Source: Haloferax marisrubri (GTDB lineage: Archaea > Halobacteriota > Halobacteria > Halobacteriales > Haloferacaceae). From it: a stretch of DNA of 64,000 bases. The notes beneath the pieces are model-generated. The model worked only from the letters and a program-made list of their open reading frames with translations, was not told where the DNA came from and did not search any database. Below are positions 34,160-56,816 of the stretch, one piece after another; positions within the stretch are counted from its first letter, which is position 1; each line of letters begins with the position of its first letter. A program made the position numbers and the translations under genes. The stretch lies in NCBI RefSeq assembly GCF_001469875.2, contig NZ_LOPW02000017.1:313908-377907 (forward strand), written 5' to 3'.

Positions 34160-35395
34160 ATGGGGCTCCTCGGAGACGAATCGACCGAAGACGCCGACCT
34201 ACGTCCGGGTCTCGCAGTCGTCGGCCTCGCCGTCGGCGTCGCGGTCGTCCAAGTCGTCGCCTTCCCCGACAGCCCCGAGACGCGCTGGCTCCGGTTCGCC
34301 GTCGAACTCCTCTTGATTCCGATTCCCGTCGCCGGCGCGTTCGTCATCGGCAGCGTCCGCGACACGCAGGCGGTCTGGCGGCCGCTGTACGCCGGAACCG
34401 CGCTGTTCACCGTCTACGCCGTCACCGACGCGGTCGACGAGGTCGTCACCCAACCCGAGGCGTTCACGCTCGTCTTCGAAGACGGGACGCTCCTCGTCGG
34501 GTCGGTCGCGCTCGCGGTCGGCGCGTTTCGGTGGTCGACCCACCGCGACGCCCGCGAGTCGGACCTGCGCCGCCGCAACGACCGGCTCGACCAGTTCGCG
34601 TCGGTCGTTACCCACGACCTCAGAAACCCGCTGAACGTCGCCCAGATGCGGCTCGAACTCGCCCGCGAGGGCCACGGAACCGAACACCTCTCGACGGTCG
34701 CCGACGCCCACGACCGGATGGAGGCGCTCATCCAGGACGTGTTACAGCTCGCCCGAGCCGGCGAGTCGGTCGGCGAGGTCGAGCCCGTCAGCCTCGCCAC
34801 CGTGGCCGCCGACGCGGTGACGAACACCAGCCTCGGGGCCTCGGGGCTCACCGTCGAGGCCGACGCGAAGTTGCTCGCCGACAGAGGGCGGCTCACCGCG
34901 GTCTTCGAGAACCTCTTTCGGAACTCGGTCGAACACGGCTCGACGAGCCGCCGGAACGCGTCCGACGACGCCGTGGAACACGGTTCCACGGGCAGTCGGA
35001 TTTCGTCCGACGACGCCGTCGAGCACAGTTCGGCAGGGAGCCGACCGTCGCCCGACGAGGCACCGAATCCGGGGGTCAGACGACCGGTTCCCGACGCCAC
35101 CGACGGCGGGTCGCCCGGCGTCAACGTCCGCGTCGGCCCGCTGGAGGGCGGCTTCTTCGTCGAGGACGACGGCCCCGGCATCCCGCCGGAAGAACAAGAG
35201 CGCATCTTCGAGTCGGGCTACACGACCGACCCGCGTGGGACCGGTCTCGGCCTCGCCATCGTCGCCGGCGTCGCCGACGCCCACGGCTGGGAGGTGACGG
35301 CGACGACCGGCGAAAAGGGCGGTGCCCGGTTCGAGTTCCGAAACGTCTCGTTCGCGGAGGAGTCCGGGGTCAGTACTTCGGGTCCGCGCCCGTGA
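34160..35395 (+). CDS. Membrane histidine kinase with repeats next to its N box
   Basis: A 411-residue kinase. About four hydrophobic segments lie in residues 15-130. The H box is [17 protein letters not shown] (His about 151). HATPase motifs: N box [14 protein letters not shown]1 [12 protein letters not shown]2 [11 protein letters not shown]. Directly after the N box, three 15-residue units beginning VEHGST/VEHSSA (residues 257-301) are inserted, each ending SDDA or PDEA, then an unstructured linker. TTATTTG lies about 29 bp before the ATG. The last 26 bases overlap the 3' end of the convergent geranylgeranyl reductase gene. Signal and partner regulator unknown. Confidence 0.9.
34928..35062 (+). 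repeat. Three in-frame 45-bp repeats inside the kinase gene
   Basis: Units at 34928-34972, 34973-35017 and 35018-35062 encode [30 protein letters not shown] and [15 protein letters not shown]. They duplicate the end of the N box (VEHGS), the part of the ATPase that follows the catalytic Asn. Being a multiple of three, they keep the frame open. Confidence 0.92.
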
Positions 35396-36785
35396 GTTCG
35401 TAGATGTCGTCCATGATGCGGTCCCGCTCGACTTTCCACCCTTCGAGGGCGCTCGGCCGACTCGGATAGCGGCCGTAGTGGGCCAGCAGTTCGTCGGCGA
35501 GGCGCTTGATTTTGAAGAACTCGTAAATCTGGTTCCAGTGACCGTAGCTCGACGCCGCGGTCTGCGCGAGGAGGACGGGACCGAACGAGGTCGTCCCGGA
35601 GTAGAGCGCTTCTGCGAGCTTCTCGCCGGGGAGGGAGGCGATGAGACCCATCAGGTCGTCCACGTCGACGGCGGTCGAGAGGATGTTGTACACGTCGAGG
35701 CTGGCGTAGCGGCCGCCGAAGTGGTCCATGACGCGCTGGTTGTAGCGCCAGAGCATCTCCTCGCCCACGTCGCCCGCTTCGAGCGCGATAGCGGCCTGCT
35801 CGCCGGCGTACTTGCCGGCGTAGGCCGCGCCGGCGATGCCGCCGCCGGTCGTCGGGTTGACGTGGGCCGCGGCGTCGCCGACGGCCATGTACCCCGGCGC
35901 GGTCGCCGAGTCGTAGGGTCGGCGGGTCGGGAGGGCGGCACCGAGTTTGTCGATGACCTCCGCGCCCTCGAACTCGGGGCGCTCGCGGAGGTCCTGCTTC
36001 AGGTCGTCGACGAGTTTCATCGGATCTTCGGTCATCTGGAAGCCGAGGCCGGCGTTGATGGTCGTCTCCGTCCGCGGGAAGTACCAGACGTAGCCCGCGG
36101 CGATGTCGGCCGGCTTGAACACGAGCGCGTCCGACCACTCGACGGGTTCGGGAACCTCGACGACCTCGCGGTACGCCGACGAGAAGTGCTGGTAGGAGAC
36201 GTTCGTGTCGAAGGTGGCGTCGGAGAAGTCCACCTTGTCCTGCAGGAGCGACAGCGAGCCAGCGCCGTCGATGACGATGTCGGCGTCGTACTCGACGACC
36301 TCGCCGTCGTGCTTGCCGACGATGCCGGTGACGGTGCCGTCGTCGTCCTGTTTCACGTCTTGGACGACCGTGTCGTAGTGGAGTTCGGCGCCGGCCTCCT
36401 CCGCGCCTTCGATGATGAGACGGCCGTACTCCCAGCGGTCGATGACGGCGAGTTCGCCGGGGACCGGGATGTCGAGGACGGTGTCCTCCTGCGGAATCTC
36501 GAAGCGGCCGTGGTCGACCTCGGTGTTGGTGAACGCGGGCTCGATTTTCGACTTCGGAATCGCCTCGGGGAAGGCGTCAGCACCTTTCAGGGCGTCCCCG
36601 CAGGCGATGTGCCCCGCTTCCTCCGCGGGCTTTCGCTCGACGATGGTCACGTCGTAGCCCGCGTTCGCGATGGTGGCGGCGGCGTAACAGCCGGAGGTTC
36701 CCGCGCCGACGACCACCACGTCCACGGACTGGGTCCGTGGGCTCGCCGAGGACTCCTCGGCGGTGTCGTTCTCGTCTGTGGACAT
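35370..36785 (-). CDS. Geranylgeranyl reductase family flavoprotein
   Basis: A 471-residue FAD enzyme of the digeranylgeranylglycerophospholipid reductase family, which saturates the isoprenoid chains of archaeal lipids. The N-terminal FAD motif is [21 protein letters not shown] with [17 protein letters not shown]; the second FAD motif is [23 protein letters not shown] polar, acidic 20-residue leader precedes the Rossmann fold. The start has a strong Shine-Dalgarno sequence (GGAGGTGAT), rare in this window. Hydrogenation of carotenoid or menaquinone side chains is an alternative role. Confidence 0.9.
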
Positions 36786-55682: not shown

Positions 55683-56816
55683 ATGCGTGTCCTGGTTCTC
55701 GGCGCCGGGTACGCGGGCCTCACGCTCGCCCGCGACCTCGAACGCCGACTCCCCGCCGACGCCGACCTGACCGTGGTGAACGACTCCGCGCACCACCTCG
55801 TCCAACACGAGGTCCACCGCGCGATTCGGCGGCCGGCAGTCGCAGACGCGATTCAGGTCCCCCTCGACGAGGCGCTCGACCGCGCCGAGGTCGTCGTCGA
55901 CCGCGTGACGGCGGTGGACCGCGACGCGCGGACCGTCGAACTCGCCGAGGGCGACGCCCTCGACTACGACTACTGCGCGGTCTGTCTGGGCGCTGAGACC
56001 GCCTACTACGGCATCCCCGGCCTCGAATCCCACTCGGTCCCGCTGAAGCGCGTCGCCGACGCGGAGACCATCCGCAAGCGCTTTTTCGACGACTGCGACG
56101 AGGGCGGCACCGTCGTCGTCGGCGGCGCGGGGCTGTCGGGCGTGCAGGTCGCGGGCGAACTCGCCGCGCTCCGCGACGAGGAGGGCGCGCACGCCGATAT
56201 CGTCCTCGTCGAGCAACTGGACGCCGTCGCGCCGTCGTTCGACGAGTCGTTCCAGCGGGCGGTCCGCGACGAACTCCTCGACAGGGGCGTCGAGATTCGG
56301 ACCGAGACGACCGTCGAGTCGGTGACGGACGCGACCGTCGCGACCGACACCGGCGACATCGACTACGACCTGCTCGTCTGGACGGGCGGCATCGCCGGCG
56401 ACGACGCGATGGGCGGCGAGCGACCCTCCGTCAGGGCGGACCTCCGACTCGACCGCCGGACGTTCGTCGTCGGCGACGCGGCCCGCGCCGTCGACGCCGA
56501 CGGCGAACCCGTGCCGGCGAGCGCCTCCGCGGCCCTCCGCGAGGCGAAGACCGTCGCCGGCAACATCGCGGCGCAGGTCGAGTTCGAGGCGACCGCCGGC
56601 GAGAACGACTTCGCGCCCCGGGTCGACCCCTACCGGTTCGAAGTCCCCGGCTGGATCGTCTCCGTCGGCGACGGCGCGGTCGCGCAGGTCGGCCCGAGCA
56701 TCTTCCGCGGGAAGGCCGCGAAAGCGATGAAAGCAACCGTCGGGGCCGGTCACCTCACCTCCGTCGGGGCGATTTCGCGGGCGGTCGACCTCGTCGACGA
56801 AGAACTGCACGCCTGA
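55683..56816 (+). CDS. NDH-2-like FAD-dependent oxidoreductase
   Basis: A 377-residue two-Rossmann flavoprotein like type II NADH dehydrogenases and sulfide:quinone oxidoreductase relatives. The FAD motif is VLGAGYAGLTLAR (residues 5-17), the NAD(P)H motif is VVVGGAGLSGVQVAGEL, and the second FAD motif is TFVVGDAARAVDADGE. A hydrophobic-amphipathic C-terminus (about 345-377) could dock to the membrane surface. It would oxidise NADH and reduce menaquinone. No redox cysteine pair typical of sulfide:quinone oxidoreductase is visible. It is 70 bp after mvaD; no operon logic is evident. Confidence 0.88.
   Translation: MRVLVLGAGYAGLTLARDLERRLPADADLTVVNDSAHHLVQHEVHRAIRRPAVADAIQVPLDEALDRAEVVVDRVTAVDRDARTVELAEGDALDYDYCAVCLGAETAYYGIPGLESHSVPLKRVADAETIRKRFFDDCDEGGTVVVGGAGLSGVQVAGELAALRDEEGAHADIVLVEQLDAVAPSFDESFQRAVRDELLDRGVEIRTETTVESVTDATVATDTGDIDYDLLVWTGGIAGDDAMGGERPSVRADLRLDRRTFVVGDAARAVDADGEPVPASASAALREAKTVAGNIAAQVEFEATAGENDFAPRVDPYRFEVPGWIVSVGDGAVAQVGPSIFRGKAAKAMKATVGAGHLTSVGAISRAVDLVDEELHA

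Follow-up and report, generated by a model that had tools for sequence, protein, structure and literature searches.

The question raised by this locus is how a histidine kinase came to carry three consecutive 15-residue repeats beside its N box. The window, by which we mean the whole stretch of 64,000 nucleotides of Haloferax marisrubri that was analysed, contains a gene for a membrane histidine kinase of 411 residues at 34160-35395 on the forward strand (Pfam HATPase_c, 7.9e-17; HisKA, 6.6e-14). Its HisKA domain spans residues 143-201 (Pfam), and the phospho-acceptor H as well as the N, G1, and G2 boxes are recognized by Pfam and alignment. The N box (residues 249-260; 34904-34939, forward strand) is largely invariant among 36 haloarchaeal kinases. 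Directly 3' of the LFRNS codons lie 135 bp (34928-35062) that consist of three in-frame units of 45 bp, and unit 1 begins within the last N-box codons. These three 15-residue units, described in the earlier note, are recovered both by a covariance model and, independently, by TRF (34928-35026, period 45, 79% matches, score 128). TRF-like repetition of another kind occurs at 1259-1336 of the window, where a 22-bp tandem repeat has 3.5 copies with 89% matches. At 35370-35395 the 3' end of the kinase gene shares 26 bp with that of a convergent reductase ORF.

The three units, all read on the forward strand, differ in their state of preservation. Unit 2 (34973-35017) scores 56.8 bits (E 2.6e-14), its hairpin 1 at 34973-34989 is GTGGAAC-ACG-GTTCCAC with 7/7 pairs, and its hairpin 2 at 34995-35011 has 6/7. 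Unit 1 (34928-34972; 38.8 bits, E 3.3e-9) has 6/7 pairs in hairpin 1 (34928-34944) and 5/7 in hairpin 2 (34950-34966). Unit 3 (35018-35062; 21.5 bits, E = 3e-4) is decayed, with 5/7 and 4/7 pairs. Some units of the window array were among the training units of the first covariance model, and the second model did not use all of them. Against a null of synonymous codons, the pairing gives P = 0.003 for unit 2, 0.24 for unit 1, and 0.08 for unit 3. Thus, unit 2 is clearly palindromic and units 1 and 3 are eroded; paired palindromes are still recognizable in units 1 and 2, and unit 3 is degenerate. A free fold of the complete array gives a mixed structure spanning the units (z = -2.5), which is less telling than the comparative evidence. 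A distal tail of 21 residues (35063-35128, forward strand), common to close orthologues, follows the array and possibly represents remnants of older units.

Where the repeat sits in the protein bears on what it could do. The ATP lid of HATPase_c kinases is found between the G1 and G2 boxes. Alignment places the G1 box DDGPG at 35165-35179 and the G2 box GTGLGLAIV at 35237-35263, both on the forward strand, so the lid of this kinase falls within 35165-35263, outside the repeat. The insertion had been thought to lie where the lid begins; it lies instead in the loop that joins the N-box helix to the strand after it. An AlphaFold2 model built from the 36 haloarchaeal kinases predicts the rest of the catalytic core well and sets residues 263-318 apart from it as a low-confidence loop, which connects the N-box helix (242-264) to strand 323-328. 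The membrane part and the insert hold the overall pLDDT of the model down to 67. The insert is thus predicted to be a disordered loop and not the ATP lid.

The unit itself has a defined architecture. Its 45 bp hold two palindromes (7-3-7, 5 nt, 7-3-7), that is, two 7-bp stems with 3-nt loops at columns 1-7/11-17 and 23-29/33-39 and with spacers of 5 and 6 nt. Two examples are GTGGAAC-ACG-GTTCCAC with ACCAGAC-TGC-GTCTGGT, and GTCGAGC-ATG-GCTCGAC with GTCGGAT-TTC-ATCCGAC. At the protein level the element adds a polar peptide of the type xEQxSSGSRTQSGDx. We collected 64 distinct units via protein similarity, and therefore pairing played no part in their selection. In these units 94.5% of cells are paired, and changes on both sides of a pair number 155 versus 59 in shuffles; shifting the partner by 1-3 bases abolishes the signal and gives nothing comparable. 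Resampling of synonymous codons gives 9.12 of 14 pairs expected per unit versus 13.03 observed (Z = 20). Pairs 3:15 and 6:12 are third codon positions throughout, and they covary (CG/GC, AU/GC). Because this covariation is purely synonymous, selection on the protein is not able to cause it. An amino-acid covariation (S...D with N...G) arises from pairs 23:39 and 24:38. The stems are kept by compensatory change far beyond what the protein requires.

These observations bear on the view that selection acts on the loop through kinase activity, with the palindromes as by-products. The N-box site does recur in kinases of many genera, as such tuning would have it, but the synonymous covariation at 3:15 and 6:12, the same peptide type in unrelated enzymes, and a loop that is predicted to be disordered and varies from 0 to about 7 steps make this explanation highly improbable.

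The compensatory change raises the further question of which nucleic acid is constrained. Mismatches in kinase units are A-C in 33 cases versus G-U in 13, and in non-kinase units A-C in 9 versus G-U in 11, numbers that codon constraints also influence. The lack of a G-U preference on the sense strand suggests that DNA, more likely than the sense mRNA, is the molecule under constraint. Selection on mRNA hairpins that control stability, cleavage, or translation would account for the strong compensatory change and for the nearly constant orientation of genic copies. Such a role is nevertheless very unlikely, given this mismatch spectrum, host genes that are unrelated in function, the free decay of distal units, and no match above cut-off in Rfam. 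The only Rfam match was a chance one to mir-598, below the cut-off of that family.

The arrays in other kinases show how the repeat grows. N-box inserts were found in kinases of Halobellus, Natrialba, Halobacterium, Haloarcula, Halorientalis, Haloterrigena, Natronorubrum, and Haloplanus, and the unit peptide is found again in further kinases of the home genome; in many genera the N box has repeatedly served as a landing site. The loop varies from 0 to about 7 steps among kinases of different species. The stretch from the N box to the next strand is 67 residues in the window kinase, and in orthologues with a common distal tail it is 66, 81, 96, or 111 residues, in exact 15-residue steps, whereas the H. 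larsenii orthologue has no unit; copy number therefore varies between species, as had been supposed. Adjacent units within arrays differ at 14.2 of 45 positions versus 11.8 for shuffled units. Hairpin 2 is common to neighbours in 0 of 42 cases, and hairpin 1 is common to units i and i+2 in 12 of 15. Simple slippage is contradicted by this unlikeness of adjacent units and alternation of hairpin 1; duplication of two-unit blocks could contribute to array growth. The N-box-proximal unit is better paired than the last one in 31 arrays and worse in 5, a polarity that is inflated because the last unit can take in unrelated tail sequence.

The earlier note had derived the repeat from the kinase gene itself, which would duplicate its own VEHGS by slippage or unequal exchange and serve as a frame-keeping contingency locus. 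Orthologues that differ by exact 45-bp steps, and an ABAB order in some arrays that fits duplication of a 90-bp dimer, speak for such local expansion. Against it are the exact 15-residue steps combined with differing neighbour stems and decay away from the N box, the fact that identical adjacent units are never seen (0/42), and single insertions with clean empty sites. The dispersal of the element in many unrelated genes largely refutes it, and we consider it extremely doubtful: the unit belongs to a dispersed double-palindrome element of many kinases and unrelated genes, and a contingency-like switch is not supported. The survey of haloarchaeal kinases that the note proposed does find units in many genera with variable numbers of steps, but the element is also scattered outside kinases.

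A covariance model built from kinase units detected the element outside kinases in Haloferax. A second model, built from mixed units, found it in 107 of 116 Halobacteria genomes and 42 of 46 genera; the genomes were one per species, so that comparisons are between species, and element counts are lower bounds because scoring was limited to the best candidates. The rest of the phylum, represented by about 53 genomes, yielded a single marginal match (E about 1e-3); as GC content probably differs between the groups, this control is imperfect. The palindromic repeat occupies many unrelated genes, and most copies examined are intragenic. From their sequences we take the hosts to include TrpA, ValS, EndA, CopA, GltX, PurC, CofG, and LeuS, as well as LeuC, UvrC, LigA, DapA, DapF, TrpE, and ABC transporters. 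One protein-search match (G000:C10:170872) was rejected, as the sequence there lacks the element.

The window contains a second copy on the reverse strand (36717-36761; 43.4 bits, E 1.7e-10), close to the N terminus of a geranylgeranyl-reductase-family gene and in frame with it; its hairpin 1 is at 36745-36761 (GCCGAGG-AGT-CCTCGGC) and its hairpin 2 at 36722-36740. All 14 of its 14 pairs are formed (P = 0.0005 versus the synonymous null; DNA fold z = -5.2), with the proviso that pairing in non-kinase copies is biased upward because they were found with a pairing-based model. Loci of H. gibbonsii, H. prahovense, H. massiliensis, and H. denitrificans (L193-L196) also have matches at the equivalent position, downstream of the kinase. 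A weak element-like match at 56175-56236 of the window (forward strand, 20.3 bits) has a long first loop and may be due to chance. The home genome has a further in-frame copy, LHLPGSQTQSGDVGELGD, at L410:987-1031 (C17:57386-57430), with the stem CGGCAGA..TCTGCCG.

Occupied and empty alleles compared in 21 host genes give an insert of 45 bp in most and of 48, 51, 51, and 57 bp in four; apparent lengths of 28 and 30 are alignment artefacts, and another alignment gives 45. Every insert length is a multiple of three, and hence the reading frame is kept. Direct repeats of 9 bp at the junctions match on average at 6.7 of 9 positions versus 4.6 in the background, and at 7/9 or better in 11 of 19 cases. 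They are imperfect: 9/9 in CofG, PurC, ValS, and ABC289, 8/9 in TrpA and L309, and weak or absent at several other insertion events. We also asked whether the hairpin-1 arm guides the element to its target or copies the target sequence, and rejected the idea (5.00 of 7 matches at its own site versus 4.91 in permutations, P = 0.33).

The frame of insertion is strongly biased. Codon statistics of the flanking sequence assign sense frame 0 to 28 distinct coding copies outside kinases, the two flanks agreeing in each; L106 and L129 are two more that read in this frame, and three coding copies are antisense (L111, L333, L343). None of the called coding copies uses another sense frame, with many further copies having flanks too ambiguous for a call. 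Read by eye, the consensus is free of stops in all six frames, and stops are thus not the reason for the single-frame bias. The bias may come from tolerance of the polar peptide or from target choice. An element occurs at the identical site in two different families in PurC (L129 and L299), and at the identical site in two Haloferax species with empty relatives in TrpA (L135 and L330); these shared sites reflect either recurrent targeting or transfer.

In CofG, inserts at one site in two Haloferax species (L109, L123) differ in both stem arms, with compensation (GCCGAGG..CCTCGGC in G008, GACGAGC..GCTCGTC in G007). Such differences at paired positions of orthologous inserts are what upkeep by mutation would produce, with gene conversion among copies, or intrastrand template switching at quasi-palindromes, keeping the arms complementary. 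Alone, this process explains neither the dispersal nor the constant insert length, and as the whole account it is rather unlikely, but it is compatible with the reading that we prefer.

On that reading, which we consider likely, Halobacteria possess a short palindromic DNA element, non-autonomous and probably mobile, and the repeat consists of copies of it. The 45-bp unit, with longer variants of 48, 51, and 57 bp, would have been inserted on many occasions, with orientation and frame almost always the same, and would have given the host protein a polar flexible loop, presumably neutral, that does not destroy it. The left arm of hairpin 1 is already spelled out by the N-box codons V-E-H-G of histidine kinases, and purifying selection on the N box would preserve this landing site, so that new 45-bp units would continue to arrive there. 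Units thus appear to arrive on the N-box side, where selection on VEHG keeps the site, and arrays would come to have intact palindromes in N-box-proximal units and decay in distal ones.

The palindromes could instead be DNA sites under selection, comparable to REP/BIME sequences, that spread as useful because a chromosomal protein binds them or because they determine topology. The mismatch spectrum fits DNA, and one genus (G055, G087) has some intergenic copies and larger intergenic arrays. Copies are, however, mostly intragenic, at sites that different species often do not have in common, and the wide variability of the stem sequence is unfavourable to a sequence-specific binder, so we regard this alternative as unlikely. 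The intergenic arrays of that genus have longer stems and lie in part inside a larger dispersed intergenic repeat (L339, L340, L345-L347, L349, L352, L353, L364); the genus is possibly the best place to seek a mobilizer of the element.

No transposase or other mobilizer could be linked to the element in a search that covered Y1 transposases. A Y1 transposase is present in G000, G055, G087, and G091; it is absent from G008, a genome 94% complete with 28 element matches at E <= 1e-4, and mobilization by Y1/RAYT is unsupported. It is possible, although we would not yet expect it, that this is a class-wide and still active archaeal mini-element that moves mostly in 45-bp steps and in one frame, lengthens the surface loops of core enzymes, uses the N box as a permanent landing pad, and depends on so far undescribed mobilizing machinery.

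In-frame palindromic inserts have so far come mainly from Rickettsia, plus one cited archaeal report. If our reading is true, nearly every haloarchaeon bears inserts in conserved enzymes whose counterparts in sister species have empty sites, and this in genetically tractable genera. It would then be testable how the elements move, why they keep to a single frame, whether the host ever benefits, and what share of haloarchaeal protein loop variation is owed to them. Inserts of this element in haloarchaeal kinase alignments should not be taken for ordinary homologous signal.

How does the element compare with known systems? REP/BIME are short, dispersed, extragenic palindromes with paired hairpins, and RAYT are Y1 transposases. 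The haloarchaeal element likewise has short palindromes, paired hairpins, and dispersed copies, but it is mostly intragenic and in frame, and Y1 is absent from the genome with 28 matches. Compared with MITEs, its hairpins are both internal, and they differ from one another. In the open PMC literature we found no published haloarchaeal description of it. The MITEs, PATEs, and SMRs of Haloquadratum are, like it, short and non-autonomous haloarchaeal repeats; PATEs have near-terminal palindromes and are tied to IS605-type transposons, SMR-A is about 110 bp, and in-frame coding insertion is not among the features given in the parts of that report consulted (PMC3119063). Mitochondrial protein genes of nematomorphs, according to the excerpt consulted, also contain palindromes, but these are perfect inverted repeats that are long (up to 284 bp) and belong to animal mitochondria (PMC6649704). 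Palindromic repeats fused into protein genes of M. jannaschii, as a 2005 report is summarized in the portion of a review consulted (PMC2229807), are likewise archaeal and in protein genes, but of a different archaeal class. RPEs are palindromic and occur in frame within many unrelated conserved genes of Rickettsia, and also between genes, with a length of 105-146 bp in one review and of about 150 bp in the other (PMC2229807, PMC10969869). The haloarchaeal element shares palindromy, in-frame position in unrelated genes, and intergenic occurrence with RPEs, a likeness drawn by description; its unit is 45 bp with two small hairpins, compared with about 105-150 bp. For RPEs we know of no mobilizer. 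Whereas RPEs belong to Rickettsia, the present element is class-wide and forms tandem arrays at a recurrent kinase site, and it would best be read, by analogy, as an RPE-like coding palindromic element.
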